A DNA stretch of 37,928 bases from Acidobacteriota bacterium (GCA_017883165.1 JADGOC010000020.1:1-37928); one strand, 5' to 3'; positions 10,495 to 33,045 are shown, counted from the stretch's first letter. Numbers and translations: made by a program. The notes: generated by a model from the sequence alone, not told the origin.

Positions 10495-10518
10495 CGCACG
10501 GCCAGGCCAGCCCGGCCG

Positions 10519-11151
10519 CTACTTCACCAAGGCGCGTACGCGTTCGACAGCGTTGGCCGCGTCGTAACCGTATCCATCCGCCCCGATCTCGCGCGCCCAG
10601 GCGTCCGAGACCGGCGCGCCGCCGACGATGACGCTGAGACGCCCGTTGAGCCCGCGCGCCCGCACCAACTCCACCACGGCCTTCATCACGGGCATCGTCG
10701 TCGTCAGCAACGCTGAGACGCCGATGACCGATGCGCCGTGCGCCTCGGCGGCGTCCACGAAGCGCTTGGCCGGTACGTCGCTACCCAGATCGATCACCTC
10801 GAACCCGGCTCCTTCGAGCATGATGCCGACGAGGTTCTTGCCGATGTCGTGGAGATCGCCCTGGACCGATCCGAGCACGACCCGGCCCGCCCTGGGCACG
10901 CCGTCGCGCGCGAGCAGCGGTTTCAGGAGATCGAGGCCGGCGTACATGGCGCGCGCGGCCAGCAGCACGTCGGGCAGAAAAATCTCGCGCAGCCGGAACT
11001 GCTCGCCGATCACGCTCATGCCGGCGAGGAGGGCGTTGTTGAGGATGTCGAGCGCGGGCACCTGCTGCTCGATCGCGTCGCGCACCAGATGCCCGACCCG
11101 ATCGTCTTCCCCCCGCTGCAGGCTTTCGGCAATCTCGGTCAGTACGGTCAC
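10519..11151 (-). CDS. Corrinoid (B12-binding) methyl-carrier protein
   Basis: The 210-residue protein has the helical cap domain (about residues 1-85) and Rossmann-like cobalamin domain (about 88-210) of methyl-accepting corrinoid proteins such as MtbC and MttC and the matching part of MetH. The motif GDLHDIGKN contains the DxHxxG histidine that coordinates cobalt, and GVSALLTTTM and VGGAPVS form the rest of the nucleotide-tail pocket. It should shuttle a methyl group on cobalt between the MttB-superfamily enzyme and an acceptor. The GTG start at 11151 is supported by GGGAG eight bases upstream. It lies between the activation-domain and homocysteine methyltransferase genes in one minus-strand unit. 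Confidence 0.92.
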   Translation of the reverse strand: MTVLTEIAESLQRGEDDRVGHLVRDAIEQQVPALDILNNALLAGMSVIGEQFRLREIFLPDVLLAARAMYAGLDLLKPLLARDGVPRAGRVVLGSVQGDLHDIGKNLVGIMLEGAGFEVIDLGSDVPAKRFVDAAEAHGASVIGVSALLTTTMPVMKAVVELVRARGLNGRLSVIVGGAPVSDAWAREIGADGYGYDAANAVERVRALVK

Positions 11152-11172
11152 GGGTCGTCTCCCATTATCGTT

Positions 11173-13337: not shown

Positions 13338-13418
13338 GAAGGCGGCCTCCTGCGGTCTGGCACGCAGCCGCGATGGTTCCCCGGCCGATGATGTCACACC
13401 TCGCGCTGTTCGAAGGTC

Positions 13419-15929
13419 TCAGCCCTTACCCAGCGACAACGGCGGCCGAGAAACGAGGACGCTCGAGACGCCGAGATGACGCTCAATGACGTCGAAGAGC
13501 TCCTCGGGCTGAATGGGCTTCGATAGATACGCGTCCATCCCCGCCGCCAGGCAGCGTGCCTCGTCCCCTTGCATCACGTGTGCGGTCATCGCGATGATCG
13601 GAAGACGACATCCAGTCGTCTGTTCTCTTTCGCGAATGATGCCAGTGCACTCGAAGCCATCCATCTCCGGCATCTGGACGTCCATCAGCACACACCCGAA
13701 CCCGACACACGCCGCTTCATCCAGAATTGCGAGCGCCTCCCGCCCGTTGTTCGCCACCACAACCGTGTGCCCGCGCTTTTCGAGCAGACGCCTGGCCACC
13801 AACTGGTTGACGCGGTTGTCTTCAACGAGAAGAATGCGCCCGGTCTGGCGCGCTTCCCGCAGGGAGTGGCGCGTGACCAACGCCGACCGATCCCGGTCAG
13901 CAGACTGGACACCCAAGGCCAACAGGATCGCGCCGTGCAGTTCCGAGCGCTTGATGGGCTTAGCGAGGTAGGCGGCGACGCCCAACACCCGGCACCGGGC
14001 GGCATCACCCGGTTTGCCGGCGGAGGCCAGCAACACAACGGCGGCGCCTGCGGTGGCCGGATCATTCTTGATGGCCGCTGCCAAGGTGAAGCCATCCGCA
14101 TCGGGCATCTGGACGTCGGCCAGCACGAGACGGAAGGGCCTTCCCGATTCCTGGGCCACGTGCAGCGCGGCGAGCGCTTCGGGCGCGCTTGCCGCCCGCG
14201 TGGGGACCATGCGCCACGCGATGAGCATCTCTTCGAGCAGGCGCCGATTCGTGGCGTTGTCGTCGACGACGAGAACGGGCACGTCTCGCAGATCGACCGC
14301 GTCAGAAACCGCTAGGGCGGCGGGGGCGTTCACCAACGCGAACCTCGCGGTGAAATGGAAAGTGCTTCCCCTGCCGGCTTCACTCTCCACCCAGAGGCGC
14401 CCGCCCATCAACTGCACAAGCTGTGAGGCGATGGTCAGGCCAAGTCCGGTGCCGCCATACGTGCGCGTCACGGAGCCGTCGGCCTGCGTGAAGGCCTCGA
14501 AGATGCTCTCTTGATGGTCCAGAGGGATGCCGACGCCCGTGTCGCGGACAGAAAAGTGCAGCACGCCCTCTGGTGGTGTCGCCGCCTCCCTCGTCACGCG
14601 AAGAACGACCTCGCCCTGGTGGGTGAACTTGATGGCATTCCCGAGCAGGTTGACGAGAATCTGGCGCAGGCGTCCGGGGTCGGCTCGCAGCGTGTGCGGT
14701 ACGGACGCATCGACATCCACGATCAATTCGAGGCCCTTCTGGTGAGCCCTCAACGCAACGGTGTTCGCCGTCTCTCCGATGGCATCGCGGGGGTTGAAGT
14801 CGATCGGGTCGAGATCATATTTCCCCGCTTCCATCCTGGAGACGTCCAGGATGTCGTTGATGACGGTCAGTAGAGCGCCGGCGGACGATTTGACGATCTG
14901 CAAATACTCCCGCTGTTCGGACGTGAGCTCCGTGTCCAGCACGAGATCGGTCATCCCGATGACACCGTTCATCGGCGTCCGAATCTCGTGACTCATGTTC
15001 GCCAGGAACTCGCTCTTTGCCTGATTTGCGGCCTCGGCGGCATCTTTGGCCGTTCGCAGCTCCCGGTTCATCCGCTGAAACTGCACGGTCTGTGTGTGGG
15101 CGCGTTGCGCCAGGTAGACCGTCAACCCCAAGATCGTTGCCATCAAGCACCCGCCACCGAGCACGACGGCAGGTATGAGGGCGAACGGTGCCTGTCCCCC
15201 TCCGATTTGCGCTTGCCACACGACCACCGCGCCAGTGGTGCCTCCCATCGCTACGCTGATCGGCAACCAGCGCGGGGCGCCGGCCGAGTCCGCCTCGACG
15301 TGCCAGGCCAGCGCCATCATGCCGACCCCGAGGACCCAGAAGCCGACCGCCGTATGGAGCGCCTGACGTGTGAGGGTGCCCCAGGCGAAGGCATCGCTCG
15401 ACCCCAGCGCAAAACCCATGCTCGCCGCCATCCCAACCGCCGCGAGGATCGAACCGTTCAGACCCAACACAAGCGCGGACCGCTTCGATGGGATCCTGGG
15501 CACCATCACCAGCGCTATGGAACCCAGGACAAAGCAAATCGCGGTCGCCGGCGCCATGCGCCCGGGACTCGAGAGCTTGACGGTGATATAGGACGGCCCC
15601 AGGAGCTCGTCGATTCCGGCACTCACGCTGAAGACGTACTCGAAGATGGTGAGGAGACTCATGGCGCTGACCATTCCCGCGCACACGACGACCAGCCAAC
15701 GTCGGCTCCCGAGAGCGACCATGAGCAAAGCCAGACCGCACAGCAGAAAACACGCGGCAGTATTGCGCGTCATGGGAGGCAGTTGTGGCAGGAGCTGGAC
15801 CACCGCGGGGGTGTGAGAGAACCAGCCGGCCAGCACTGTCAGACCCAATGCGACGATGAACACTGCCGAGCCCGCCGCCAAGCGCGTCGGCCAAGATCTT
15901 AAATGGACTGTTTCAGTCACGTCACACAA
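13419..15929 (-). CDS. Hybrid sensor histidine kinase with two receiver domains
   Basis: The 836-residue protein has an N-terminal membrane region of about eight helices (residues 15-285), a HisKA domain with [13 protein letters not shown] (phospho-histidine near residue 314), an HATPase domain (about 425-535, with DTGVGIP and GTGLGLTI), and two receiver domains (about 560-675 and 705-825) whose phospho-acceptor aspartates lie in LADVQMPD and [11 protein letters not shown]. No HPt domain or DNA-binding domain is seen, so the phosphate would go to an outside partner. The start is uncertain: TTG 15929 or GTG 15920. It is 163 bases downstream of the quinone-oxidoreductase operon and in the same direction, but there is no direct evidence that it controls it. 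Confidence 0.92.
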
Positions 15930-16092: not shown

Positions 16093-18753
16093 CTACCGTG
16101 CGGCGGTCGGCGCGGCCTGGGAGCGGCGAGAGAGCACGAACGCGGTGAGATCCGCGGCTTCGCCAGGTTCGAAGCGCGGCCACGGCAGATTGCGGGAGCG
16201 GAGCTCTTGGTCCATCTTCGGCGCGTGATCCCACATCGCGGCGATGATGGCGATCGGCTCGTCGAGGTCCGTGATCGTCGAGAGGTCGGGACCAATGCGC
16301 TTGCCCCCGCCTATCGAATGACAGGGTGAACATTTCTTGATGAAGAGTTCTCCGCCCCGATCGGGATTGCCCGACACGGTCGCGTAGTTGACGAAATACA
16401 GGTACGCGAGGATGTCCGCCATCTCCTGTCCGGAGAACGACACCCGCGGAATGTTCCGCCGCGCGAGCTCCGCGGTCATGCCCTGGCTGTGGTTCCACAT
16501 CAGTCCGGCGAGCGACGAGATGGAACCGACGAACTCCCGTCCGCGCCGGCCGAGGTCGGGGCCGCCATGGCCGCCGATGCCCGCGACGGCATGGCACTGG
16601 TCACAGCGCTTGCTGGCGAAGAGCTCCCGCCCGCGGCGGGGACTCCCCGGTTCGAAGTACACGCGTTCGTCGGTTGCGCCCCCGCTGCCGGCCTGGAGAA
16701 AGGCGAGCAGGTCACCCATTTCGCGTCCTTCGAACTTCGGCCACGCGATGCCCTGGCCGCGCATGACGGTGGCCATCTCGGCGCCGTGGTTCCACATCAC
16801 CTGCGCGAGAAAAATGGAGGAGAAGCGCCCCTTGTACCGTGACAGATCGGGCCCGGGCTTGTCCCACGCGCCGGCCCCGTGGCAGCGCGTGCACCCCTTC
16901 CCGGCGAACACCGCTTTCCCCGCCGCGGGATTGCCCGGCTGTCCGACCTCGGTGAGGTAGTAGCGATAGGCGGTGAGAAACGCGACGAGGTCCGCCATCT
17001 CACGGCTGGTCAGCGTGGGCGGCTGGATCTTCATGTCCAGCATCTTTTCCCGCATCACCGGCGCGTGATTCCAGAACGAGCCCGCCAGGTCCATGACCGT
17101 GCCGCGGAAGTGCAGACGGCCGAGGTCGGGTCCGACGCGCGTGGCGTTTCCCGCGAGGGCGTGGCAGCGCACGCAGCCCTTCTCGACAAACAGGAGCGCG
17201 CCGGTCGTCGGATTGTCCGGCAGCTCGATCGACAGCGTGATGTCGCGACCGGTGCGGCTCGGTTGCGCGCTCGCACGATCGGGCCGTCCGACCGCCGGCG
17301 CCGCCGGCCGTGTCTGCCCGAAGGCCACGGCGGATCCACCGACGACCAGGATCAACACGACGCCCAGCGTCGTCCGCGCGAGCCCGGGGACCGTGCGTGC
17401 CGGTCCGTGACCGGGCGGCAGGTGCAATCGTCCGACGGTGGCGGCTCCCGCCGGGTCGCCCGCAGCCTCGGACGTCTCGGCAGACAGCTCCCAGATCGAA
17501 ATGATCGGGAACAGTTTGGTGAAGCCCATGTAGAGTAGCGCGAAGGCGGCGAAGCAGCCCGCCATCAGCGACCACTCGACCCAGCTCGGTTTATATACGA
17601 ACGTGTGCACAGGCGCGCGCGGGTTCGAGAGCGACGGCACGACAATCGTGAAGCGCTCCAGCCACATGCCGATGTTGACCGAGATCGAGGCGATGAGCGT
17701 GCCGGCGATCGTCCGCGTGCGGTTGTTCGCGAGAATCGTGAACGGCACGATGAAGCAGAAGACGAGCATGGCCCAGAAGAGCGGCGCGAAGGGTCCGAAC
17801 AGCTTCGCGTTGAACACGTTCAGCTCGTTGGGCTCCTGCGCGTACCACGTCGTCAGATACTCGGCGAACGTGAAGTAGAGCCACAGGCACGCCATCACGA
17901 GCAGCAGGAGGCCGAGATTGTTGAAGTGCACCGGCTGCAGGTAGCGCTCGAGGCCATAGACCTTCCGCACGACCACCATGGCCGTGATGATCGCCGCGAT
18001 CCCAGAGAAGATCGCGCCGACGACGAAGTAGGGGCCGAAGATCGAGGAGTGCCACATCGGCTGGATCGTCATCCCAAAGACCCACGACACGACCGTGTGG
18101 ACCGACACCGCTACCGGGATGACCCCGATGGCCATGATCGAAATGGTCTTCTCCAGCCGATGCCACTGGTGTGGGGCGCCGGTCCAGCCGTTCGCGAGCC
18201 GCCCGTAGAACACGTGCCGCCAGCCGGTCGTGCGGTCGCGCAGCAGGGCGATGTCAGGAATCAGCGGCAGGTACAGGTAGATCGAGCTGCACATCAGATA
18301 GACGGTGATGCTCGACACGTCCCAGATGAGCGGCGATCGCAGATGCGGGTGCAGGATGACGTTCAAGGCCCGGTCGGGTCTGCCGAGATCGAGCAGGACG
18401 TTGCCGACGCCGAAGAACAGCACGAGCACCGTGATGACTTCGGCCATGCGCGTGATCGGACGCCGCCACTCCGCCTGCACGATTCGCAGGATCGCGGAGA
18501 TGAGCGTGCCGGCGTGCGAGACGCCGACGAAGAACACGAAATTCGTGATGTAGAGGCCCCAGTACACCGGGCGTCCCAGGTTCGTGGCGCCAAGACCGTG
18601 CGTGAGCTGCCACGTCCACGCGAACAGTGCCCACCCGACCACCGCGGCGAGCGCCATCGCCCACAGCCTGAAGCTGCGGCCGATGGTGAAGATCGGCGCG
18701 ATGATCTCGTCGTGAGACGCGTCGGCCGTCGATGCCGGGAGCGGTGCGTCCAT
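16093..18753 (-). CDS. NrfD-type membrane quinone subunit fused to four cytochrome c domains
   Basis: ATG 18753 starts one base after the ferredoxin stop, with GAAGGGG just upstream. The 886-residue protein has an NrfD/PsrC-like part of about ten membrane helices (residues 15-455), one more helix at about 470-490, then an exported region with four tandem cytochrome c domains. Haem motifs are CVRCH (527), CTRCH (621), CDQCH (717) and CSPCH (808), 91-96 residues apart. Each unit repeats a GPDL block, a W(N/D)H block and a Met/Phe-rich end, so they arose by internal duplication. Family knowledge: NrfD subunits exchange electrons with quinone and partner with a four-cluster ferredoxin, encoded just upstream. 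A fused tetraheme tail is not part of Qrc, ACIII or Nrf as I know them; it would give an electron exit wire at the periplasmic face. It is the last gene of the operon. Confidence 0.88.
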   Translation of the reverse strand: MDAPLPASTADASHDEIIAPIFTIGRSFRLWAMALAAVVGWALFAWTWQLTHGLGATNLGRPVYWGLYITNFVFFVGVSHAGTLISAILRIVQAEWRRPITRMAEVITVLVLFFGVGNVLLDLGRPDRALNVILHPHLRSPLIWDVSSITVYLMCSSIYLYLPLIPDIALLRDRTTGWRHVFYGRLANGWTGAPHQWHRLEKTISIMAIGVIPVAVSVHTVVSWVFGMTIQPMWHSSIFGPYFVVGAIFSGIAAIITAMVVVRKVYGLERYLQPVHFNNLGLLLLVMACLWLYFTFAEYLTTWYAQEPNELNVFNAKLFGPFAPLFWAMLVFCFIVPFTILANNRTRTIAGTLIASISVNIGMWLERFTIVVPSLSNPRAPVHTFVYKPSWVEWSLMAGCFAAFALLYMGFTKLFPIISIWELSAETSEAAGDPAGAATVGRLHLPPGHGPARTVPGLARTTLGVVLILVVGGSAVAFGQTRPAAPAVGRPDRASAQPSRTGRDITLSIELPDNPTTGALLFVEKGCVRCHALAGNATRVGPDLGRLHFRGTVMDLAGSFWNHAPVMREKMLDMKIQPPTLTSREMADLVAFLTAYRYYLTEVGQPGNPAAGKAVFAGKGCTRCHGAGAWDKPGPDLSRYKGRFSSIFLAQVMWNHGAEMATVMRGQGIAWPKFEGREMGDLLAFLQAGSGGATDERVYFEPGSPRRGRELFASKRCDQCHAVAGIGGHGGPDLGRRGREFVGSISSLAGLMWNHSQGMTAELARRNIPRVSFSGQEMADILAYLYFVNYATVSGNPDRGGELFIKKCSPCHSIGGGKRIGPDLSTITDLDEPIAIIAAMWDHAPKMDQELRSRNLPWPRFEPGEAADLTAFVLSRRSQAAPTAAR

Positions 18754-18754
18754 G

Positions 18755-19429
18755 CTATTCCCCTTCACGCAGGTAGATGACCTTCGGCTTGGTCCCCAGT
18801 TCTTCCATCCATCGAAACGCGCGCGCGCTGGCGGCCAGCGCCGCCACCTCGCTGTGCGGATCGTCGAGGTCGCCGAACACCATCGCTTCACCCGGACACG
18901 TTTGCACGCACGCCGGCACGTAGTCTTCCGGAGCCAGATCACGTCCCTCGGCCCGCGCGCGCTCGCGGGCCGCCATCAGACGGTGGTGGCAGAACGTGCA
19001 TTTCTCGACCACGCCCTTGGGCCGCACAGACACGTCGGGATTCATCATCGGCGTCATCGCGTCGGGCCACTCGGGCGTGGTCCAGTTGAACACCTTGACG
19101 GCATACGGGCACGCGTTCGTGCAATAGCGGCAGCCGATGCACCGGGGGTACACCTGCGCGACGATGCCCTCGGGGTTGAGATAGGTGGCGCTCGTCGGGC
19201 ACACGTCGGTGCACGGCGGACGATCGCAGTGCTGGCACATCAACGGCATCGCCGTGCCGGTCGCGCCTGGCGCGTCCGCGGCCACCAGCTGAATCCATGT
19301 CATCAACCGGCCCGCTTTCGTCGTCGTGGGCGTCGAGAACGAGACGTTGTTCTCGTGCTTGCACGCCACGACGCACGCCTGACAGGCGGTGCAGCGGTCG
19401 AGATCGATCACGAGGCCCCAGCGCGACAT
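18755..19429 (-). CDS. Four-cluster ferredoxin subunit (NrfC/DmsB/QrcC-like)
   Basis: The 224-residue protein carries four [4Fe-4S] motifs: CTACQACVVAC near residue 13, CQHCDRPPCTDVCP near 65, CIGCRYCTNACPY near 97, and a split fourth set (CTFCHH near 143 and CVQTCPG near 177). This is the standard electron-transfer subunit of the DmsB/NrfC/PsrB group. It should pass electrons between the molybdopterin-type subunit and the NrfD subunit. It has no signal peptide and would be exported together with the Tat-borne partner. In ACIII this domain is fused to the ActB chain; here, as in Qrc, it is separate. It starts ten bases after the stop of the upstream gene. Confidence 0.94.
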   Translation of the reverse strand: MSRWGLVIDLDRCTACQACVVACKHENNVSFSTPTTTKAGRLMTWIQLVAADAPGATGTAMPLMCQHCDRPPCTDVCPTSATYLNPEGIVAQVYPRCIGCRYCTNACPYAVKVFNWTTPEWPDAMTPMMNPDVSVRPKGVVEKCTFCHHRLMAARERARAEGRDLAPEDYVPACVQTCPGEAMVFGDLDDPHSEVAALAASARAFRWMEELGTKPKVIYLREGE

Positions 19430-19439
19430 CAGTTCTCCT

Positions 19440-21692
19440 CTACACTTGCGTGACGCGGACGTTCATCGGGCCGGTCGGATCGCTCCGCCCCCAGAGGCTG
19501 CGCACATCGGCCGTCATCAGCTGCGCCCAGCGCCCGCCGGGCTTGAGCGCCGGCACGTACGCCACTGCAACAGTGTCGAGCGGCATCCGCTCGACGACCA
19601 TTGCCACCGCGTCAATCGAGCCCGCGGCGGAGGTGATGCGAACCGGCGATCCCTGATCGAGACCCGCAGCTCGCGCGGTCTCGGGCGCAAGCTCCGCCCA
19701 GACACGCCAGGGGCTGCCCTCCGGCTGGCCGAGCAGTTCGAAGAGCACCGGCTGGTTCGGACTGCCCATCTGGTTGGCGCAGGCCGGCGTGAACAGGGTG
19801 AGCCGCAGCGGGAACTCGCGGGACGCCGCGGGCTGATCCGCCGCGCGCTGGAACGACGCGGGCACCACGGCCGGCTGCAATCCCCCGGCATTGGCGGCGG
19901 CCGCTTCGATCGGCATCGCCGGCGGCACCAACGTGAGACCACGCTGGGCGAGCCGCCGTCGGATTGCGCCGGAGGCGAAGAACGGGTCCATCCAGCCACC
20001 CGCGCGCAGGGCGGCCTCGCCGAACTCCTCGCGCGATGGGGCCGGCGCCACCCACCAGCCGCCGGTTTCGAGCTGCTGCACCCACTCGGTCTGAAACACG
20101 TTCGCGTACAACGTGCCGTGCCTCAGGCCCCACAAGCGATCCAGCTCCGCTTTGACGACATCGGCGTCGGCGCGCCACGCGTAGCCGGCGGCGACGTCGC
20201 CGCCGAGTTTCGCGGCCGTGGCGCCAAGCACGTCGACCAGACCGCGCGTGTCGAGACGCGCGACGGCCACCGGTTTCGCGCACGCGACTTTCTGCAGCGT
20301 GTCCGTGGTCGGCGGCGCGAGCGCGTGCCAGCTCTCGAGGGGGGTGTGCGTCGGCAGCAGGAGGTCGGCGACTGACGCCGCTTCGTCGAGGTACGGCGAG
20401 AAGCTGACGACGAAATCGCAGTGCTCGAACAGTGGCATCAGATCGTGAGGCGACGAGGCCGCGCGGAGCGGCGAGGCGTCGCGCAGGGCGACGACGGCGG
20501 GTGGCTTGGCGCCGCTGGCGAGGCGCGACAATTCCGAAGCGGCGCTGATCGGTTCGGGAGCGGTTCGGGCCACCGCGGATTCGTACACGCCGCCGGGGCG
20601 ATCCAGAGCGCCGACGAGTGCGTTCAGCGCCAGCACGGCGTCGACCAGATCGGGACGCGCATCGGCGGCCACCACGACGAGCGGCTGCGGCGTCGCGGCG
20701 AGCTCTCTGGCGAGGCGCAGCAACGTCACGACCGGCACGCCGGTGGCGACCGCCACGTTGTCCGGCGTGTACCGCGCCACGACTTCGCGCTCGAAGTCGG
20801 CGAGGTTTCCGCCGAGCTCAGCGAGAAGATCGCGATCGACACGGTCTTCGCGCAGCAGAACCGACGCGATGCCGTACGCCAGAAACGCCTGACGGTCGGC
20901 GGGTACCGGGAGCCACTCGTCCGCTTTTCGTGCCGTCAGCGATCGGCGGCCTTCGAGGTGCACGAAGCGGCCTCGCGAGCGGCCGCCGCCGCGCCTGAAC
21001 CGCCCGTAACTGCGCTGGGTCCAGACCGGTCCGAGCCAGTCCTCGACGAGAGGCGCACCGAACGAGAGCACGTAGGAGGCTCGCTCGACATCGAAGATCG
21101 GCTCGCCGCCGGCGCCAACGAGCGCGCCCATCCGTGGCGCGAGTCGCGCGCTCCCCGCGGCGAGCGTCCACGCGACGCGCGCGCCGAGCGGCGTCCAGAA
21201 CTGGGTCCACGCATCGGCGAGGGCGCCCTGCTCCTCGGCCGCCAGTGCCAGCACGCCGCGCCGGTCGGCTCGCGCGCGCCCGAGATGCGTGGTCAGGATC
21301 TGGATGGCGTCGGCCCAGGCGATCGGCTCGAAGCGTCCTTCCTCTCGGCGTCCCACGCGTCGCGCGGGACCGACGAGTCGATCGGGGTCGAAGTAGGCTT
21401 CGAGCGCCGCCTGGCCCTTGGCGCACAGGCGTCCTCGGGAGACGGGACAGACCGGATTCCCTTCGAGCTTCACGGGCGTGCGGTCCATCAGGCGCACACG
21501 GAGGCCGCAAGCGGCCGGGCATTCCCGGCAGACGCTGGTCGCCCACGTTTCGACTGCCTGCTCGTGCCAGGCCCCGGCGCGCTCGTCGGCCCGCGACAGC
21601 CACCGGCGCCCGACCTGGCCGAGCGTGATGCCCGCGACGGTCGCCCCGCCGTAGACGAGAAAATCTCGACGGTTGAATGATGTGGGGCTCAT
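19440..21692 (-). CDS. Molybdopterin-oxidoreductase-like, Tat-exported subunit (QrcB/ActB-like)
   Basis: ATG 21692 overlaps the TGA of the pentaheme gene (ATGA), giving 750 residues. The N-terminus has a Tat signal (NRRDFLVYGGATVAG), so the protein is exported folded. A [4Fe-4S] site follows, with CRECPAACG and the fourth cysteine in LCAKG. The rest has the molybdopterin oxidoreductase fold order, including the C-terminal dinucleotide-binding-like region near residues 640-750. In Qrc and ACIII the corresponding subunits lack molybdenum cofactor and only carry electrons; which applies here cannot be decided from sequence. Position between a pentaheme cytochrome and a ferredoxin/NrfD pair points to a quinone:cytochrome oxidoreductase rather than a reductase for a small molecule such as polysulfide or nitrate. 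Confidence 0.85.
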   Translation of the reverse strand: MSPTSFNRRDFLVYGGATVAGITLGQVGRRWLSRADERAGAWHEQAVETWATSVCRECPAACGLRVRLMDRTPVKLEGNPVCPVSRGRLCAKGQAALEAYFDPDRLVGPARRVGRREEGRFEPIAWADAIQILTTHLGRARADRRGVLALAAEEQGALADAWTQFWTPLGARVAWTLAAGSARLAPRMGALVGAGGEPIFDVERASYVLSFGAPLVEDWLGPVWTQRSYGRFRRGGGRSRGRFVHLEGRRSLTARKADEWLPVPADRQAFLAYGIASVLLREDRVDRDLLAELGGNLADFEREVVARYTPDNVAVATGVPVVTLLRLARELAATPQPLVVVAADARPDLVDAVLALNALVGALDRPGGVYESAVARTAPEPISAASELSRLASGAKPPAVVALRDASPLRAASSPHDLMPLFEHCDFVVSFSPYLDEAASVADLLLPTHTPLESWHALAPPTTDTLQKVACAKPVAVARLDTRGLVDVLGATAAKLGGDVAAGYAWRADADVVKAELDRLWGLRHGTLYANVFQTEWVQQLETGGWWVAPAPSREEFGEAALRAGGWMDPFFASGAIRRRLAQRGLTLVPPAMPIEAAAANAGGLQPAVVPASFQRAADQPAASREFPLRLTLFTPACANQMGSPNQPVLFELLGQPEGSPWRVWAELAPETARAAGLDQGSPVRITSAAGSIDAVAMVVERMPLDTVAVAYVPALKPGGRWAQLMTADVRSLWGRSDPTGPMNVRVTQV

Positions 21693-22162
21693 CGGTGACA
21701 CGCCGCGCAATCCTCGGAGGCGCCCTCACGATTGTGGCAGGCCAGACACGTCTTCATTTCGATCCGCACGGGAGCGACGCCGAGCGGAGCCATTCGCTCG
21801 CGCATCTTGCCGTGGCACGACTCGCAGTCGAGCTTCGCGAGCGTGACGTGCCGGCGATGCGAGAACATCACGTGATCGGGCACGTGCGTCACCTGGACCC
21901 ACGCGATCGGCGGCTCGCGCTGCGCGGTGCTGGCCATGGCGCGCCCCGGAATCGTCGAGTGGCATTTCGCGCACATCGCGGCGTTGGGAATCCCGGCATG
22001 CGCGGTGGTCGCGGCCCCGCGATGGCAGACCGTGCACGCGACCCCCTGGTGCTTCGCGTGGGGAAACGCGATCGGCTGCCGCACCGGCGAGGGCGGCAGC
22101 ACCACGATCCAGGCCGCGGCCACGAGTCCCGTCACGAGCGCCGCGCCAAAGTAGCGGAGCAT
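21689..22162 (-). CDS. Pentaheme cytochrome c (QrcA/ActA-like)
   Basis: This 157-residue protein has an N-terminal membrane anchor or signal helix (about residues 5-22) and five CxxCH motifs: CTVCH, CAKCH, CESCH, CLACH and CAACH. Histidines such as those in FPHAKH and FSHRRH are placed as distal ligands in the manner of class III multihaem cytochromes. ActA of alternative complex III carries five haems and QrcA six; both sit at the periplasmic side next to the molybdopterin-like subunit, which is also the order here. It starts one base after the preceding stop and overlaps the next gene by four bases, so expression of the complex is tightly coupled. Confidence 0.87.
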   Translation of the reverse strand: MLRYFGAALVTGLVAAAWIVVLPPSPVRQPIAFPHAKHQGVACTVCHRGAATTAHAGIPNAAMCAKCHSTIPGRAMASTAQREPPIAWVQVTHVPDHVMFSHRRHVTLAKLDCESCHGKMRERMAPLGVAPVRIEMKTCLACHNREGASEDCAACHR

Positions 22163-22163
22163 G

Positions 22164-22580
22164 TCAGAAGCCGGGCGTCTTGGGCTGACCCGCCATCTTC
22201 TTGTCGTAGAGGGCCTTCTTGCGGATCTTCGAGTCGTAGGTCACGAATTCGAAGATCTGCTTGCCCTCGTCCGCGCTGATGAGCGTCCCGGCCTTGCGCA
22301 TCATCCGCTTGACGTAGCGCTCCCACTCGTCATCGGTCGCGAACTCGCAGTTGATCGCGCGCGCCAGCGTGTGGCAGTTGGTGCACTTCTTGGCGAAAAG
22401 CTTGTACTTCGCCTGCATGTCGGGCGGGTACTTCGACACGTTGATCGTGGCCGGCCCTTTGTCGTACGCCAGGATGCGCGCGTCGACCGGCACCTCTTTG
22501 TCTTGTTCCTGGGCGATCGCGCGGACGAACCCGGCGAGCGCGATCACACTGAGCACGGCAGCGACGATTGCCCGTTTCAT
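22164..22580 (-). CDS. Monohaem cytochrome c
   Basis: ATG 22580 has GGAGG seven bases upstream and gives a clean Sec signal peptide (RAIVAAVLSVIALAGFVRAIA); an earlier in-frame start at 22643 lies inside the upstream gene. The mature part holds one CTNCH haem site, a WERYVKRMMRKAG block, and EGKQIFEFVTYDS, a pattern shared with small periplasmic cytochromes and with the C-terminal haem domain of some reaction-centre cytochromes. A sixth-ligand methionine is possible in KRMMRK. It probably ferries electrons between the pentaheme subunit and other carriers. Exact class uncertain. Confidence 0.82.
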   Translation of the reverse strand: MKRAIVAAVLSVIALAGFVRAIAQEQDKEVPVDARILAYDKGPATINVSKYPPDMQAKYKLFAKKCTNCHTLARAINCEFATDDEWERYVKRMMRKAGTLISADEGKQIFEFVTYDSKIRKKALYDKKMAGQPKTPGF

Positions 22581-22600
22581 GTCAGACCTCCAACGTCGGT

Positions 22601-23044
22601 TCAACGCCATTTCGATTTCTCCGTTTTCGGATAGAGGCTCCACAGGTACTCCACGAGATCGGCCACGTCGGCGTCGCTCATCTGCCCCGCCCAGCCGGGC
22701 ATGCGATACGGCGGGCGCGGGCCGTTCGGGTCTTTCTTGCCAACCGTGGCCAGCCCGTCGAGGATCTTCTTGCGCAGCTCGGGGCGCGTGTAGCCCTCCG
22801 CGACATACGTGATGCCCGGCACCTTGCCGTCGGTTTCGGCGTTCGGGTTCGAGAACCCGCCCTTCCCGTCCGGTCCATGGCAGATCGAGCAGCCGTAGCG
22901 CGCGTAGACCGCGTGGCCGCGCTCGATCGCGGAGGCGCCGACGACCTCCGGCGTTCGCACGGGCTGCGGCGCCGGCGATCGCATCGCGAGCCGGAGGCCG
23001 TAGCCAGCCAGCACCAGTGCGACCACCACAACGACACGTCTCAT
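22601..23044 (-). CDS. Class I monohaem cytochrome c, membrane-anchored
   Basis: The 147-residue protein has an uncleaved-looking N-terminal helix (RRVVVVVALVLAGYGLRLAM), one CSICHGPDGKG haem site near residue 52, and a PPYRMPGW segment near 113 that supplies the axial methionine, all standard for class I cytochromes. It is first in the six-gene operon. The 40-bp element at 23064-23103 starts only 20 bases upstream of its ATG. GGAG is present just two bases before the ATG, an unusually short spacing. It is a likely mobile carrier or docking cytochrome toward the outer-membrane pair. Confidence 0.88.
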   Translation of the reverse strand: MRRVVVVVALVLAGYGLRLAMRSPAPQPVRTPEVVGASAIERGHAVYARYGCSICHGPDGKGGFSNPNAETDGKVPGITYVAEGYTRPELRKKILDGLATVGKKDPNGPRPPYRMPGWAGQMSDADVADLVEYLWSLYPKTEKSKWR

Positions 23045-23063
23045 GGCTCCAAGTTAGGCGACG

Positions 23064-23103
23064 GAAATGAATTGACGGTGAAAGTCCGGTTAAAACGCGT
23101 TAA
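23064..23103 (-). promoter_or_regulatory. Shared 40-bp promoter/operator element, copy A
   Basis: Positions 23076-23103 are identical, base for base, to 27006-27033, and the flanking block 23064-23075 matches at 7 of 12. On the minus strand it contains TTAACGCGTTTTAAC, a direct repeat of TTAAC with a 10-bp period, the spacing used by OmpR-family regulators; it also holds the palindrome AACGCGTT. The second TTAACC and a TCATTT are 17 bases apart, where -35 and -10 would be, though TCATTT is a poor -10. It precedes the six-gene cytochrome/quinone oxidoreductase operon. Confidence 0.75.
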
Positions 23104-23150
23104 CCAAGCGTGGCGGAGTGGAGGCACAGAGACGTATGGCCACAGAGGCT

Positions 23151-23198
23151 CAGAGACACGGAGACACTCAAGAAATTCTCCGTGTCTCCGTGTCTCTG
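23151..23198. terminator. Strong 17-bp hairpin between the two cytochrome operons
   Basis: Arms 23151-23167 and 23182-23198 are perfectly complementary over 17 bp, with a 14-base loop. The core CAGAGACACGGAGACAC resembles the dispersed 'cacagagacacggagaca' repeats common in environmental genomes, and a degenerate partial copy lies at 23124-23148. It sits just after the stop of the outer-membrane barrel gene, so it could end that transcript or shield its mRNA. No U-tract follows, so it is not a standard intrinsic terminator. Confidence 0.6.
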
Positions 23199-23208
23199 TG
23201 GCTCTCTT

Positions 23209-25908
23209 CTAGAAGCTGAGGATGTAGGACACGCCGACGACATTCACCGTGTAGTTGAATGGCGTCTCGTTGCTCGGCAGCACGCCGGCGATCGTCCCGG
23301 CCCCGATTTGCATGCCGTCGTAGACCCAGTCGGACGCCTTCATGCGCAGGAAGGAATACGCCACACGCACCGACTGACGCTTGTCGATCGTGTATTTGCC
23401 ATTCAGGCGCACTTCGGCCGTGTCGGTGGTGACGGTCGGCAAGGGGCTGGCGGCGATGAACCAGGCCGCAATGGTCGTTGGCGCCGCCCCCGGACCGTCC
23501 AGGATGTTGTTGGCCCAGTTCCCGCCGCTCACGTTGTTGTCCGAGCGCGCCCGCGTCAGGACGAGATTGCCGGTCAAATCCAGCGCGCTGGCCTTCTTTC
23601 TCAGTCCGAACCCCACCGTGTGCACCTTGTCCAGCATGTCCGAGGACCAGTTCAGGCAGGGGTCCAACTTGTTGTTGTTGTTCCGTTGCTGCAACGTCGT
23701 GTAGCCGTCGCAGCTGTTTCCGGAGAGACCGACGACCCCGGGCTGACCGTTGGTCAGGGTAGCGCCGTTGCTGTTGGCCGTGTAGCTGTTGCCCGCCGTG
23801 ACGCCCCGCTGATCCTCATAGCTGTAGAACGCGTTGAGGCTCAGATCATCGCTGAGCGCGTACGTGCCATCGAGGTTCACGGCCCAGCCCCTGGCGTCCT
23901 GCACCCCGTACGTCGAGTTAGGGTAGTTGTCCTTGTTGTAATCCAACCCGCCGTGCAGCGACAGTTCATCGGTCGCCTGCCACTCGAGGGAGCTGCGGAC
24001 CTTGTTGCGATTGCGATCCGCCACGTAGTACCTGCGCATGCCCGGCAGTTCGCTGATTCGGTTGTTGTTGGCGTAGGCCGTGTTGGCCAGCGCGTTATTG
24101 CTCGGGAAGAACAGGTTCATGTTGCCGGTGGTGGCGGCGAAGCCGGCCTCGGGCCCCCATCCGGTCCACCCGTTCGCGTTCATGAAGGAGAGAGCGGTCC
24201 CGCCTCCCGTCGCCGTGGCGGGGCTGACGTTCGCGTAGGGGACCAGCGCCAGGAACGCATTCTCGTTGTAGCCTGGCGCCCTGCGCGCCGCGTACTCGTA
24301 GCCGACCCTGCCGGTGAGATCCTCACGGACGTTCGTCCGCCACTCGGCACGCAGAACATTGTCGTTGGTGGTGGGCGCATCGGCGCAGCTAATCCAGGCC
24401 CCGCTGCATTCACGGTCGATCTTCTGGAACTCGTAGGCCCCCTTGATCGACTGCCCCTTCGCCACGGCGTAATCGGCATCGAGGGTGACCTGATTGAGCT
24501 TCCGGCTATAGGCGCGGTTGGCGTTCGCGTTCTGCGCGAGCACGACGCCGAGCGGGTTGTTTGCACCGGCCAGGAAGTTGGCGTTGGCGCTTGGCGCTTC
24601 GCCGGCGTCAGCGTACTGGAAGATGTGCACCGACGTCCGGTTGTCGCGGTCGTCGTACTTGTACGCGGCGCTCAGATTCACTTTCTTCGCCGGCTTGGCC
24701 GTGAATTTCGCGTTGAACGCCGTGCTCACCACGAGCCCGTTCAATGAGCTCACCGGCACGACTGCCGTCGTGGCGTCGGTGAGGAACGCGTCGTTCTGCG
24801 TATTGCGCGCGTACGATCCGTTCGCCACCAGCTTGGTGGTGGACGACAGGTTCACGCCGGCCGTCACGTTGAACTGGTTGTAGTCGTTGCTCGGCGCGCT
24901 GCTCATGGTATTGACCGTGCCCGTTCCCGCGGGACCGGTCGCCCAGTTCTGCCACGACATGAACGGCACGTTGTTCTTGAAGAACGACCCGTAGTACCCA
25001 ACCTGCGCGAAACTCTTGGCGCGCCTGAAACTCAGGCTCGTGTTGATCTGATTGTGATCGTTGTCGATCACGTCCGGAATGACGGTGGAAATGTCGCCGC
25101 CCGTGCTTCTCGATATCGTCCCCATCGGCTTCAGGCCGTCCTTGTGCTCGGGCCGGAAGCTCGCGTCGACGCTCCAATGCGGGTTGAAGTTGTAGGAGAG
25201 GCCGAGGTCGTATCGGGTGCGCGTCGTGGAGAGGTTGACGTTGTGGAACGACGCGAGGTCGGCGTCCGCCGCGGCGTCGACTTGGGCCCGCTGCGCCGGG
25301 GTCGGCGTCAGCAACGCGCCCATCGTCGGCGAGTTCGTGGCGGTGCTGATGTACGGCGCATCGCCGATCGCCTTGATCAGGCCACGCGCGCTCACGGTGT
25401 TCACGGCGGTATTGCTGGTGCTGCTGCCGGCCACGGTCGGTACCAGCCACGTGCCGGGCAAGGTGAGGACATTGGACCCGGCGCCGTTGTAGGGCGTCTG
25501 GTAGCTGTCGGATCGGTTCCTCCGTATCTCGTCGAAGCCGGCATTGAGCCGGAACTTGCCCTGAGCGCCGACCTCGCCGTACAGACTGCGCGTCTGCAGG
25601 CCGAGATCGATGCCCTTGATGCGCCAGCGCAACGCGCTATCGCTGTCGAAGGCGCCGCCGCCGCGCCAATCGATATTGCCGATGACGAAGCCCCCCTGCT
25701 TCTGCAGCCCGTTGTATTCGCCGGCTTTGTACGAACCGTCACTGACGTCGCCGGCGCCGATCTCGGTCGTGCTGGTGGGCTTGGTCAGCTCCTGTCCGCT
25801 TTGCGCCACCGCATGGCCCGTGTAGGTCGCCAGCGCCATCGCGATGAGCGCGCCGCGTACGGCCGCCACCGAAGCCCGGGCGGTAAATCCATTCGTGTTC
25901 GTTGTCAT
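23209..25908 (-). CDS. MtrB/PioB-family outer-membrane beta-barrel
   Basis: The 899-residue protein has a signal peptide (about residues 10-35, ending HAVAQSG), GNIDWRGGGAFDSDSALRW near residue 80, many alternating-hydrophobic strands with Asn/Thr-rich turns, and a C-terminal VVGVSYILSF ending in Phe, as outer-membrane barrels do. It matches the decaheme-associated MtrB/PioB family, whose barrel holds the decaheme cytochrome inside the outer membrane. It is longer than Shewanella MtrB (about 700), perhaps from bigger surface loops; cysteine pairs near residues 490-500 and 745-765 may brace two of them. The N-terminal CxxC of MtrB is absent. The start at 25908 has GGGGA nine bases upstream and comes 24 bases after the decaheme cytochrome gene. 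Confidence 0.88.
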   Translation of the reverse strand: MTTNTNGFTARASVAAVRGALIAMALATYTGHAVAQSGQELTKPTSTTEIGAGDVSDGSYKAGEYNGLQKQGGFVIGNIDWRGGGAFDSDSALRWRIKGIDLGLQTRSLYGEVGAQGKFRLNAGFDEIRRNRSDSYQTPYNGAGSNVLTLPGTWLVPTVAGSSTSNTAVNTVSARGLIKAIGDAPYISTATNSPTMGALLTPTPAQRAQVDAAADADLASFHNVNLSTTRTRYDLGLSYNFNPHWSVDASFRPEHKDGLKPMGTISRSTGGDISTVIPDVIDNDHNQINTSLSFRRAKSFAQVGYYGSFFKNNVPFMSWQNWATGPAGTGTVNTMSSAPSNDYNQFNVTAGVNLSSTTKLVANGSYARNTQNDAFLTDATTAVVPVSSLNGLVVSTAFNAKFTAKPAKKVNLSAAYKYDDRDNRTSVHIFQYADAGEAPSANANFLAGANNPLGVVLAQNANANRAYSRKLNQVTLDADYAVAKGQSIKGAYEFQKIDRECSGAWISCADAPTTNDNVLRAEWRTNVREDLTGRVGYEYAARRAPGYNENAFLALVPYANVSPATATGGGTALSFMNANGWTGWGPEAGFAATTGNMNLFFPSNNALANTAYANNNRISELPGMRRYYVADRNRNKVRSSLEWQATDELSLHGGLDYNKDNYPNSTYGVQDARGWAVNLDGTYALSDDLSLNAFYSYEDQRGVTAGNSYTANSNGATLTNGQPGVVGLSGNSCDGYTTLQQRNNNNKLDPCLNWSSDMLDKVHTVGFGLRKKASALDLTGNLVLTRARSDNNVSGGNWANNILDGPGAAPTTIAAWFIAASPLPTVTTDTAEVRLNGKYTIDKRQSVRVAYSFLRMKASDWVYDGMQIGAGTIAGVLPSNETPFNYTVNVVGVSYILSF

Positions 25909-25932
25909 GGCACAGTCCCCGAATGAACGTAG

Positions 25933-26919
25933 TTAGCGCTGGAACTTCGCACCGGCCGGATGGTTCGATCCATGGATCAGCACGTGGCAGTTCAAGCAGG
26001 CCCGAGCGGCCGCTTGCGCACGCGGCGTGGCCGCTCCCGGCTGCAGCGTGCCGTTGACGGTCGTCACGTTGCCGCCCGCCAGATTGGCGCCGCTGTTGAT
26101 CTGCGCGCCATGGTCACCGCTGTGACACTCCTGGCAGAGCCACGGCGCGCGCGCCTTCAGCAGCGGCGCGTTGGTCGAGCCGTGCGGCGTGTGGCAGTTG
26201 GTGCAATCGTCGACGACGGGGGCGTGCTCCCAGAGGAAGGGGCCGCGCTTCTCCGCGTGGCAGGTGTAGCAGGTCTCGTTGACCGAGTTCTTGACGAGCA
26301 TCTTCGGCGCCGGCGACCCGTGCGGGTTGTGACAGTCCGAACACGCCATCTTGGCGGCGCTCGCCAGGCTGGTCACCGCCAGTGGATGGGTCGAGATGCG
26401 ACGCGTCTGCGCGCGCTGCGTCTTGTGGCACGTGAAGCACACTTCGGCCTGCGTCGCCTTGCTCAACACCTTCTGATCCGGCGCGTGAAGGTTGTGGCAC
26501 GTGGTGCAGGCCAGCCCTCGCGTCTGATGCTGACTGCCGGTCCAGTTCGCGCGCGGCAGCACGCTGCTCTCGTGACACTTCAGGCAGGCCGCGCTCCGCA
26601 CGTCCGCCGTGGAAATGTGCTTCGAGTTCGCGCCGAAGACGACGTCCGGGGTCTTGCCGGGATCGGTCCGGTGGTCGACGCTCGCCCCGTGGCAATCCTG
26701 GCAGCCTGGCGTGCGCGAGTCGGCCTTGTTGCCGTGGCGCGTTTGATAGATCGAGAGGAGCGGTGTTCGCCAGGACGCCCCGTGACAGGCGCTCGTGCAC
26801 ACGGCATCCTTGTCGAGGGCTGCCTTGACCGGTCCCGCCTGGCCAGCGGCCGCGGACGCCGCGGCTCCACAGCTGAGGACGAATACACACAAGCCTGCGA
26901 TCTGGTGCAAGCGCTTCAT
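25933..26919 (-). CDS. Decaheme cytochrome c (MtrA/DmsE/PioA-like)
   Basis: ATG 26919 lies seven bases after GGGGAG and begins a good signal peptide (KRLHQIAGLCVFVLSCGAAA); a start at 26982 would put 21 extra residues ahead of it. The mature protein has nine CxxCH sites (CQDCH, CLKCH, CTTCH, CFTCH, CSDCH, CYTCH, CTNCH, CQECH, CLNCH) plus an unusual first site CTSACH with three residues between the cysteines, ten in all. The count, the 328-residue length and the paired barrel gene match the MtrA/DmsE/PioA group, which forms the wire through the outer membrane. No outer-surface MtrC-type cytochrome is encoded in the window. Electrons may flow out (to minerals or other acceptors) or in. Confidence 0.92.
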   Translation of the reverse strand: MKRLHQIAGLCVFVLSCGAAASAAAGQAGPVKAALDKDAVCTSACHGASWRTPLLSIYQTRHGNKADSRTPGCQDCHGASVDHRTDPGKTPDVVFGANSKHISTADVRSAACLKCHESSVLPRANWTGSQHQTRGLACTTCHNLHAPDQKVLSKATQAEVCFTCHKTQRAQTRRISTHPLAVTSLASAAKMACSDCHNPHGSPAPKMLVKNSVNETCYTCHAEKRGPFLWEHAPVVDDCTNCHTPHGSTNAPLLKARAPWLCQECHSGDHGAQINSGANLAGGNVTTVNGTLQPGAATPRAQAAARACLNCHVLIHGSNHPAGAKFQR

Positions 26920-26993
26920 CTTTTGCTCCCCGGCTTCAGCCGGACGCGCGTCGGCTGCGAAGACACGCGTCATGCCTTTCACGATGAGCCTTG

Positions 26994-27033
26994 AAAATGA
27001 AGGAGCGGTGAAAGTCCGGTTAAAACGCGTTAA
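26994..27033 (-). promoter_or_regulatory. Shared 40-bp promoter/operator element, copy B
   Basis: This is the second copy of the element at 23064-23103; positions 27006-27033 are its perfect 28-bp part and the remaining 12 bases match at 7. Reading toward the decaheme gene it has TTAAC at a 10-bp repeat. It overlaps the last 14 bases of the sensor kinase gene including its stop, and lies about 75 bases upstream of the cytochrome ATG at 26919. Because it sits in coding sequence here yet in noncoding sequence at copy A, its conservation is best explained by a regulatory job. Confidence 0.75.
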
Positions 27034-28474
27034 TCGTCTGAGGCGGCGACGCGGGCGTCAGATCGGACGCGGCGGGAAGCGGCAGGAACACGGCAAACGT
27101 CGACCCCTGGTCGACCACGCTCGAGACTTCGATGCGGCCGCCGTGTGTCCGGACAATGTGGTCGGCAATCGCGAGCCCCAGGCCCGTGCCGCCGGTGTCG
27201 CGGGCGCGCGCCGGGTCGGCGCGATAGAAACGCTCGAAGATGTGGGGCAGATCCTCGGGCGATATTCCGCAGCCTTCGTCGACGAGGGCCACCACCGCCT
27301 CGGTGTCCAGCCGCCCGATCGTCATCTGAATCGTCGAGCCATCCGGCGAGTAGCGAACGGCGTTGTGCGCGAGGTTGAGCAGGGCGCGCCGCAGGTGCTG
27401 CGCGCTCCCGCTGACGGTGACCTCGGCGAGGACGTCGACCGAGACGACAATCTGTTTCGGCTCGGCGACCGCGCGCACGATCTCGCAGCACTCCCGGACG
27501 ACGAGGCCGAGGTCGACCGGCTCGGCGCGCTCGAACAGGTGTCCGGCATCGGCCAGCGCCAGCAGACGAAGGTCGCGTACCAGCGCCGAGAGCCGATCGA
27601 TGTCGGCGACGATCTCGCCGGCCAGCGCGCGATGCTCCGGCGCGCTCAGCTCGTCGCGCAGGCCGACGTCGAGCGCCGCGCGCATGGCCGCGATCGGCGT
27701 CTGCAGCTCGTGCGACGCGTCGGCGGCAAATCGCCGCGCGCCGTGCATCGAGGTCTCGAGGCGATCCAGCATGCCGTTCAGCGTGTCGACCAGGCGATCC
27801 AGCTCCTCGCTGCCGGTACGCACGTCGAGTCGCTCTTCGAGACGGCTGGCCTGGATGGCGCGCACGCGCCCAACGATCGCGTCGACCGGCCTGAGGGCAC
27901 GCCGCGCGATGAAGCTGCCGCCGTAGCTCGCCGCCGCGAGTACGAGCACGAACAGCACCAGCATGGTGGCGGCGAGCTGGCGCAGGATGGCGCGGTCCGG
28001 TTCGGTCGGCGCGGCCACCTGAACGACGAGCGGCGCGGCGCCGGTCCGCTCCACGAGCAGCGTCGCAAGCCTGAAGGTGTTGCCGGTCGAATCGTCGGCG
28101 CTCATCAGGCTGTCGCCGCCACGCGCCGCGCGGACAGCGGCCGCGTCGTCCACGCCGCGAAGCGGAGGAAACGTCGGTGATGTGTAGACCGGTGCGCCCG
28201 ATCGCGCGCGCACGATGAACGGCTCGTCGAGAAGACGCTGATCGTTGGCCAGCGCCAGGACCGGATCGAGCTCGAGCAGTCGCGGTTCCAGCACGGCCAC
28301 GAGATGCTGCGCGTGGATGTTCAGCTCCGCGTCGACCTCGCGGGACAACGTCGCCACGCGGATGAGGAACACGGAGGTCGCAAACGCCGCGAGGGCGCTG
28401 CCGAGCATCAACAGGTACCACAGCGTGAGCTGGGTACGAATGCTCCTAGGCTTGACGTGGATCGCGAAAGACAT
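27020..28474 (-). CDS. Sensor histidine kinase of the two-component pair
   Basis: The 484-residue protein has two membrane helices (about residues 15-40 and 167-188) around a periplasmic sensor of about 125 residues, then HAMP (about 190-245), HisKA with FAADASHELQTP (histidine 255), and HATPase (about 360-470, with NAVRYSPDG, EGCGISPED and GTGLGLAI). The layout resembles metal-responsive CusS-type kinases, but the sensor part has no obvious metal-binding cluster. ATG 28474 lies 29 bases inside the regulator gene, so the two are coupled; an upstream start at 28513 is possible. Its end overlaps the 40-bp element, and the decaheme gene follows directly. Confidence 0.92.
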   Translation of the reverse strand: MSFAIHVKPRSIRTQLTLWYLLMLGSALAAFATSVFLIRVATLSREVDAELNIHAQHLVAVLEPRLLELDPVLALANDQRLLDEPFIVRARSGAPVYTSPTFPPLRGVDDAAAVRAARGGDSLMSADDSTGNTFRLATLLVERTGAAPLVVQVAAPTEPDRAILRQLAATMLVLFVLVLAAASYGGSFIARRALRPVDAIVGRVRAIQASRLEERLDVRTGSEELDRLVDTLNGMLDRLETSMHGARRFAADASHELQTPIAAMRAALDVGLRDELSAPEHRALAGEIVADIDRLSALVRDLRLLALADAGHLFERAEPVDLGLVVRECCEIVRAVAEPKQIVVSVDVLAEVTVSGSAQHLRRALLNLAHNAVRYSPDGSTIQMTIGRLDTEAVVALVDEGCGISPEDLPHIFERFYRADPARARDTGGTGLGLAIADHIVRTHGGRIEVSSVVDQGSTFAVFLPLPAASDLTPASPPQTINAF

Positions 28475-29129
28475 AACCGACACCGCGGATGGCCTGGATG
28501 AGGCTCGGCTCACCGGAGACGTCGATCTTGTCGCGGAGATGCTTGACGTAGACGTCGACCACGTTGCTCGCGTGATCGAAGGTGAAATCCCACACGTGCT
28601 CCGCGATCATCGTCCGCGTCAGGACGGCGCCGGCACGCCGCATGAAATACTCGAGCAGCGCGTACTCTTTCGCCGTGACCGGGATCGCCCGTCCCGATCG
28701 GTGCACGGCGCGGGTCGACGGATCCATCTCGAGATCGCCGACGGTGAGGACGACGCGGGCGCCGCCGGCCTGCCGCCGCCGCTGGAGCGCGCGCAGACGC
28801 GCCGACAACTCGACCATCGCGAACGGCTTCACCAGGTAGTCGTCCGCGCCGGCGTCCAGGCCGCGCACGCGGTCCTCGAGCATGTCGCGCGCCGACAGGA
28901 TGATCACCGGCGTCTGCCGGCCCTCGCAGCGAAGCGTGCGGCACACGCTGAGGCCGTCGACCTTGGGAAGCATGAGGTCGAGCACGATCGCGTCGTACTC
29001 GTGGGTGCGGGCCAGTTCGAGCCCCTCGGCGCCGTCCGTGGCGATGTCCACGGAGAACGCTTCCTCGGACAGCGCTCGCCCGATGTAGCTCGCCATGCGT
29101 CGCTCGTCCTCGACGATCAGGACCCGCAC
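28446..29129 (-). CDS. OmpR-family response regulator
   Basis: GTG 29129 is preceded by AGGAGGAGG at a proper distance and gives 227 residues, the usual length. The receiver domain (about residues 1-120) has the acidic VEDE cluster and the phospho-acceptor aspartate 51 in VLDLMLP; the winged-helix domain (about 135-225) has ALLEYFMRRAG and the recognition segment VDVYVKHLRDKID. Members bind direct repeats of about 10-11 bp, and such a repeat lies in front of both cytochrome operons. It is 285 bases downstream of the transporter gene and translationally coupled with the kinase gene. Its regulon is inferred, not shown. Confidence 0.94.
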   Translation of the reverse strand: MRVLIVEDERRMASYIGRALSEEAFSVDIATDGAEGLELARTHEYDAIVLDLMLPKVDGLSVCRTLRCEGRQTPVIILSARDMLEDRVRGLDAGADDYLVKPFAMVELSARLRALQRRRQAGGARVVLTVGDLEMDPSTRAVHRSGRAIPVTAKEYALLEYFMRRAGAVLTRTMIAEHVWDFTFDHASNVVDVYVKHLRDKIDVSGEPSLIQAIRGVGYVFRDPRQA

Positions 29130-32038: not shown

Positions 32039-32050
32039 CGGTTTCCGGGC

Positions 32051-33022: not shown

Positions 33023-33045
33023 ACCCATCGTCTCACCGGCAGCCA

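Follow-up and report, generated by a model that had tools for sequence, protein, structure and literature searches.

A probable extracellular electron-transfer island of an Acidobacteriota bacterium, in which an MtrAB-type conduit and an alternative complex III-like quinone module share a regulatory box

Among the routes connecting extracellular electron transfer to the quinone pool, NetBCD is an NrfBCD-type set that, to our knowledge, has neither a MopB-like subunit nor a tetrahaem cytochrome, and CymA is, as far as we know, not thought to conserve energy at the quinone step. In the Mtr system of Aeromonas, NetBCD is a non-CymA inner-membrane quinol dehydrogenase encoded with MtrCAB (PMC8805035), and in the candidate phylum MBNT15 ActABCD-like genes with a four-haem ActE-like protein have been proposed for Fe(III) reduction (PMC9386147). 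Here we describe an island of genes at 16093-29129, on the minus strand of a stretch of 37,928 nucleotides from an uncultured Acidobacteriota bacterium of soil or groundwater (GCA_017883165.1, JADGOC010000020.1; the whole stretch is called the window below), in which a decahaem cytochrome and an outer-membrane barrel of the MtrAB kind adjoin a quinone module resembling alternative complex III (ACIII) and Qrc. Judged from its sequence, the island is probably one co-regulated unit for extracellular electron transfer, with an ACIII/Qrc-like quinone entry and a path from the quinone pool to the cell surface. This reading is preferred because an identical, genome-specific box stands before both halves, and because their linkage survived exchange of the barrel. 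The window is contig C149 of an assembly of 4.24 Mb in 334 contigs (GC content 67%).

The shared regulatory box and the linkage of the two halves

The same 28-bp element lies before the decahaem gene (27006-27033) and before the operon formed by cytA1 and the quinone module (23076-23103). An identical pair of this length is not expected by chance, and the repeat, which had gone unmentioned in the preliminary description of the locus, is the only exact direct repeat of at least 20 bp in the window. The 20-bp core of the box, searched with up to three mismatches, had no further match in the whole genome. The motif as searched, TTMACCGGAYTTTCAYN6YTCAT, has three sites in the whole genome, of which the third lies on contig C139, 5' of the gene for another tetrahaem cytochrome; this gene (L046:9766-11158) encodes a protein 61% identical to the tetrahaem cytochrome of the island. 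Among relatives, copies of the motif stand before the decahaem gene, before the quinone operon, before a second MtrAB pair and before tetrahaem paralogues, and in one genome (G016) also before a Cyc2-like gene. Sites with at most one mismatch were confined to seven module-bearing genomes of the 25 searched and were absent from control genomes, and a motif model run on 2.1 Mb of collected loci returned a single non-seed site, before cytA1 of G037, with the next match scoring far lower.

In the aligned sites, the half-sites TTMAC, TTCAT and TTCAT follow each other at 11-bp steps, a spacing typical of OmpR/PhoB-type operators, which the box thus resembles. The response regulator of the island carries the OmpR/PhoB-type DNA-binding domain PF00486 and is nearest to the heavy-metal (CopR/CzcR/SilR) subfamily, scoring 260 bits with TIGR01387 and so falling under the cut-off of 279. 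From its proximity and its domain type, this regulator is presumably the one acting on the shared box. The region between the barrel gene and the second box (23104-23208) has a predicted fold of -49 kcal/mol, and the hairpin could be an operon boundary; since the barrel gene and box 2 lie on either side of it, the island probably comprises two operons under one switch.

Two further arrangements of the motif were observed. In L216:2039-8661 (G016:C77) and in L217 (G026:C28) it stands before a gene for a TonB-receptor-like barrel, after which comes a PF01070 protein resembling flavin mononucleotide-dependent hydroxyacid dehydrogenases and having a start like that of twin-arginine translocation (Tat) substrates, possibly a periplasmic electron donor of the same regulon. 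In L039:10672-14087 (G016:C55), the island contains another decahaem-barrel pair, which is unrelated to the first and has its own copy of the motif.

The linkage of the two halves was followed in a close clade of acidobacterial genomes, whose NrfD parts are about 78-83% identical. At all seven close-clade loci with enough flanking sequence, the window's included, MtrA and MtrB lie no more than 10 kb from the module; three further loci were left out, their contigs being too short or cut. Several of these loci also retain the two small cytochromes and the two-component pair, and gene order and strand are rearranged among the genomes. The barrels of G037 and G038 are just 22-25% identical to that of the window, and in a tree of 35 barrels the well-supported branches allow no fewer than five changes in whether a barrel stands beside the module, so that the module has kept the company of MtrAB while the type of MtrAB was exchanged. 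The module also occurs with MtrA or MtrB nearby in metagenome-assembled genomes (MAGs) of Terriglobia (L106, L117) and in Rokubacteria (L111, L127). On balance, and with somewhat less assurance than for the island as a whole, we favour the view that a potentially electrogenic ACIII-type complex is the dedicated partner of MtrAB, held in one regulon by a private operator and keeping this role through exchange of the conduit with distant MtrAB types.

The conduit and the quinone module

Every gene named in the preliminary description is present on one strand of the island and is backed by family models (Table 1). Its total of 21 haem sites also stands, although these are 20 CXXCH motifs and one CX3CH; such motifs are well above chance, with nine in the decahaem cytochrome against a shuffled mean of 0.09, and five in the pentahaem cytochrome against 0.04.

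The decahaem cytochrome exceeds the curated cut-off of TIGR03508 (261 bits against 192) and matches the MtrA-type structure 6r2q_A with an E value of 2e-63. The barrel, the sole MtrB of the genome, likewise exceeds the curated cut-offs of TIGR03509 (393 bits against 240) and PF11854 (402 bits against 23), and together the two most likely form an outer-membrane electron conduit of the MtrAB kind. The ten haem sites of the decahaem cytochrome include CTSACH, the CX3CH motif, as the first; all eight aligned relatives have CXXCH there, and the deviation may be a real oddity or an assembly error. Its gene probably starts at the ATG at 26919, 3' of the regulatory box, in a frame that is open up to 26982. 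As had been described, no MtrC-type surface decahaem accompanies MtrAB within the window, and weak matches to MtrC domains occur elsewhere in the genome. At the locus, the decahaem-barrel pair has no high-potential iron-sulfur protein (HiPIP), reductase gene or CymA beside it.

In the quinone module, three subunits have their best NCBIfam matches in the Qrc families, each below the equivalog cut-off: the pentahaem cytochrome with QrcA (NF041781; 68 bits, cut-off 180), the MopB protein with QrcB (244 bits, cut-off 440) and the ferredoxin with QrcC (271 bits, cut-off 400). The NrfD part reaches 49 bits with the QrcD equivalog (cut-off 570), and of the solved structures it matches ActC, a subunit of ACIII, best (6f0k_C, E 3e-71). 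Of the 23 quinone-binding and proton-transfer residues listed for Rhodothermus marinus ActC (PMC8076601), 20 are identical in the NrfD part by the phmmer alignment, in which two of the four quinone-site residues differ and the position of Asp253 is Val. The position of His139 most likely corresponds to the Asp of LDLGRPD, if the multiple alignment is followed and not the gapped phmmer one, and an Asp there parallels Asp120 of QrcD.

The MopB protein had been taken for a Tat-exported molybdopterin-like protein, and it does have a Tat-type signal and the four FS0 cysteines (61, 64, 68 and 96), but the Mo ligand is absent: Ala184 aligns with the ligand Cys173 of polysulfide reductase (PsrA), without a conserved Cys or Ser to take its place in the protein or its relatives. 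For this reason the MopB protein is probably not a catalytic molybdoenzyme, which agrees with the description of QrcB and ActB as cofactor-less (PMC6303296). Its predicted structure (mean predicted local distance difference test score, pLDDT, 67.5) recovers the general molybdoenzyme fold only, superposes poorly overall and does not separate ActB/QrcB from PsrA. The ferredoxin has 16 cysteines, with a Tyr between two of them in CRYC; Tyr113 of QrcC, likewise placed between cluster cysteines, is essential (PMC13059093). A search of plasmids gave only distant ferredoxins, the best about 43% identical.

The NrfD-cytochrome fusion of the preliminary description is a single open frame in the window, whereas all relatives inspected have two adjacent genes. 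Both ends of ActC are cytoplasmic (PMC8076601), and as one extra helix is predicted at the joint, the tetrahaem domain would sit in the periplasm. The quinone operon has no ActD, ActF or monohaem ActE, the tetrahaem cytochrome being present instead. Where close relatives of the module are named, they belong to Acidobacteriota MAGs, of which many come from groundwater or soil.

Table 1. Genes and regulatory features of the island, in minus-strand order, with positions counted from the first nucleotide of the window
Feature	Position	Strand	Basis or remark
OmpR/PhoB-type response regulator	28446..29129	-	PF00072 and PF00486; TIGR01387 260 bits; beside the island in relatives too
Membrane sensor histidine kinase, metal-type	27020..28513	-	HAMP, HisKA, HATPase_c; TIGR01386 245 bits, cut-off 293
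Regulatory box 1, 5' of decahaem gene	26997..27033	-	27006-27033 identical to box 2
DmsE/MtrA-type decahaem cytochrome, nine CXXCH and one CX3CH	25933..26919	-	TIGR03508; 6r2q_A
MtrB/PioB outer-membrane barrel	23209..25908	-	TIGR03509, PF11854
Strong hairpin between barrel gene and box 2	23143..23207	-	Predicted fold
Regulatory box 2, 5' of quinone-module operon	23067..23103	-	23076-23103 identical to box 1
cytA1, monohaem class-I cytochrome c, N-terminal signal or anchor	22601..23044	-	PF00034; conserved in relatives
cytA2, small monohaem cytochrome c	22164..22643	-	One CXXCH; 57-74% identity in relatives; start codon probably inside this frame
Pentahaem cytochrome, QrcA/ActA-like, membrane-anchored	21689..22162	-	Five CXXCH; NF041781; one predicted helix
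QrcB/ActB-like MopB protein, Tat-type signal	19440..21710	-	FS0 cysteines kept, Mo ligand lost
Ferredoxin like QrcC and the ActB C-terminus, 16 Cys for four clusters	18755..19429	-	Tyr of quinone site kept in CRYC
ActC-like NrfD (about 17446-18753) fused to tetrahaem class-I cytochrome (about 16093-17280)	16093..18753	-	One extra helix at joint

A hybrid histidine kinase directly 3' of the island (13419-15929, minus strand) was considered as a member and rejected, as it is not kept beside the module in relatives. The rest of the window includes a corrinoid methyl-transfer set (9586-13397, minus strand) of an MttB-like methyltransferase, a Met_synt_B12 activation-like domain, a B12-binding protein and a homocysteine S-methyltransferase, as well as a radical SAM protein with a B12-binding domain and a DUF4070 tail (7799-9151, plus strand). 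At 30755-35400 (minus strand), a 2-oxoacid dehydrogenase set (lipoyl E2, E1 beta, E1 alpha) recognised by eye adjoins a major facilitator superfamily transporter; the Pfam check covered the transporter only.

The proposed path, its direction and the alternatives

According to the single-path model, the two-component pair would act on the shared box and switch on two operons, one for the decahaem cytochrome and the barrel and one for the quinone module. The module's subunits would assemble into a quinone:cytochrome c oxidoreductase of the ACIII/Qrc type, whose NrfD subunit would handle quinone near the periplasmic face and move protons, and electrons would pass from the four-cluster ferredoxin through the MopB subunit to the pentahaem cytochrome. 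The tetrahaem tethered to NrfD would, with the small class-I cytochromes, then carry them over the periplasm to the decahaem cytochrome, which would conduct them through the barrel. NrfD subunits of the ACIII/Qrc type are linked to proton transfer, so the quinone step could conserve energy if this model is correct. As a quinone entry for extracellular electron transfer, the complex would then also form a further class next to CymA, CbcL/MtoC, ImcH and NetBCD, and a co-regulated ACIII-like partner would be relevant to widespread soil and groundwater bacteria.

The direction written here is the one that we favour, with some reserve, within the single path: outward flow, in which quinol is oxidised and an extracellular acceptor is reduced, is suggested by the closeness of the NrfD part to ActC. 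Inward flow through the same path is nevertheless a serious, somewhat less probable option. Set beside the other explanations as one of its own, it would be a Mto/Pio-type uptake system and appears unlikely, if the best placed of them; it is a sub-case of the preferred reading that differs from it in direction, so that our confidence in the preferred reading, in inward flow and in the next alternative overlaps. Electrons from Fe(II) or Mn(II) would enter by the barrel and the decahaem cytochrome and be carried by high-potential class-I cytochromes, and the ACIII-like complex, reversed by the proton-motive force, would reduce quinone. Room for such uptake is left by the class-I monohaem cytochromes, by the window having no surface cytochrome of the MtrC type, by the metal-type two-component pair and by Cyc2-like genes, both behind the same box in G016 and elsewhere in the window's own genome, and the Asp at the position of His139 is as in QrcD, which reduces quinone. 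However, ActC, to which the NrfD part is nearest, is of the quinol-oxidising type, and the Cyc2-like label denotes motif and length, namely one N-terminal CXXCH and a barrel-sized region, with no Pfam or NCBIfam match. Proteins so labelled are encoded in the window's own genome at L159:498-1751 (C111) and L160:1480-2898 (C192), and within the island of two relatives at L039:14949-16412 and L041:12142-13704.

It is also conceivable, though we regard it as improbable, that the two halves are neighbours and not partners, the module serving a general periplasmic cytochrome pool as another complex III and an ImcH-like protein feeding MtrAB. Several observations agree with this and weigh against the preferred reading. 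The wider module is widespread, with at least 584 confirmed relatives, the best 80 of which cover many phyla, and most of these 80 have no MtrAB near the module. Separation of the halves in most relatives, named beforehand as telling against a single path, is what is found outside the close clade: of 50 genomes selected there as carriers of the module, 36 gave no match to MtrB; inside the clade, the halves were linked at every locus counted. No MtrB stands beside 20 related tetrahaem-less modules of the same order, some of which lie on short contigs. In the class of the window's genome, MtrB is present in 89 of 193 genomes, and none of 19 sampled MtrB regions, taken from outside the known module loci, carries the quinone module. 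With the module mostly without MtrAB across phyla and MtrAB mostly without the module in the class, the distribution marks the module as a portable unit. Furthermore, the genome searches found no good box in G038 and G047, which have the module, and all these counts come from metagenome assemblies of related organisms and are not independent.

An alternative quinone entry is also at hand, since an ImcH-like protein of the NapC type, with three helices, is encoded in five of the 19 sampled MtrB regions. The genome of the window has such a protein too, encoded with an 11-haem cytochrome on contig C87 (L161:5830-9399). This ImcH-like protein, with three helices, five CXXCH and one CX3CH, could feed MtrAB. 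The idea that the quinone module replaces CymA therefore needs rewording: no small CymA-type NapC/NirT tetrahaem was found in the window; the alternative present beside MtrAB in the class is a larger ImcH-like protein, and the one clear NapC match in the genome is also of this kind. In favour of the single path, contig C106 bears a second ActC-like gene together with a haem-copper oxidase gene, which suggests that the aerobic branch is a separate one. Against mere proximity speak the genome-specific box common to both halves and a linkage that persists while the type of MtrAB is exchanged, and the earlier proposal of one path is upheld by these two observations for the close clade, not as a general tie of the module to MtrAB.

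A respiratory molybdoenzyme, working like DmsEF-DmsAB on a substrate such as dimethyl sulfoxide (DMSO), arsenate or polysulfide, is very improbable, although the decahaem cytochrome is of a DmsE-type family and a MopB protein is present. The latter has Ala at the Mo ligand position with no conserved Cys or Ser there, the ground on which its identity as a catalytic molybdoenzyme or DMSO reductase was rejected, and its best match is QrcB, described as cofactor-less (PMC6303296).

Comparison with known systems

Both halves of the island are of known kinds, and it is their dedicated pairing that seems undescribed: the open-access papers searched, subscription papers and preprints lying outside the scope of the search, yielded no account of a module of the ACIII/Qrc kind that shares its locus and its control with MtrAB. 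With ACIII (ActABCDEF), the island shares the pentahaem, MopB-like and ferredoxin parts and an ActC-like NrfD, and it has a class-I cytochrome where ACIII has ActE. It differs in encoding the MopB protein and the ferredoxin by a gene each, in the lack of ActD and ActF from the operon, in having a tetrahaem and not a monohaem ActE, and in adjoining MtrAB and not an oxidase. The ACIII-like cluster of MBNT15 likewise has a tetrahaem ActE-like protein, and no MtrAB pair or shared box has been described with it (PMC9386147).

The four-subunit plan is that of QrcABCD, as are the best NCBIfam matches (QrcA, QrcB and QrcC), the Asp at the position of QrcD Asp120 and the Tyr between cluster cysteines. 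On the other hand, all scores are under the equivalog cut-offs, the NrfD part is far nearer to ActC than to QrcD, the pentahaem cytochrome has five haems where six are found in Qrc, and the tetrahaem cytochrome is additional.

The decahaem cytochrome and the MtrB-type barrel, both over curated cut-offs, are common to MtrCAB, MtoAB, PioAB and DmsEF, from which the island differs in having no adjoining surface cytochrome, HiPIP, reductase gene or CymA. Finally, the ImcH family (PMC6295460) occupies the place of quinone entry beside MtrAB at other loci of the window's class; ImcH is a single NapC-type multihaem membrane protein, whereas the entry encoded in the island is an NrfD complex.

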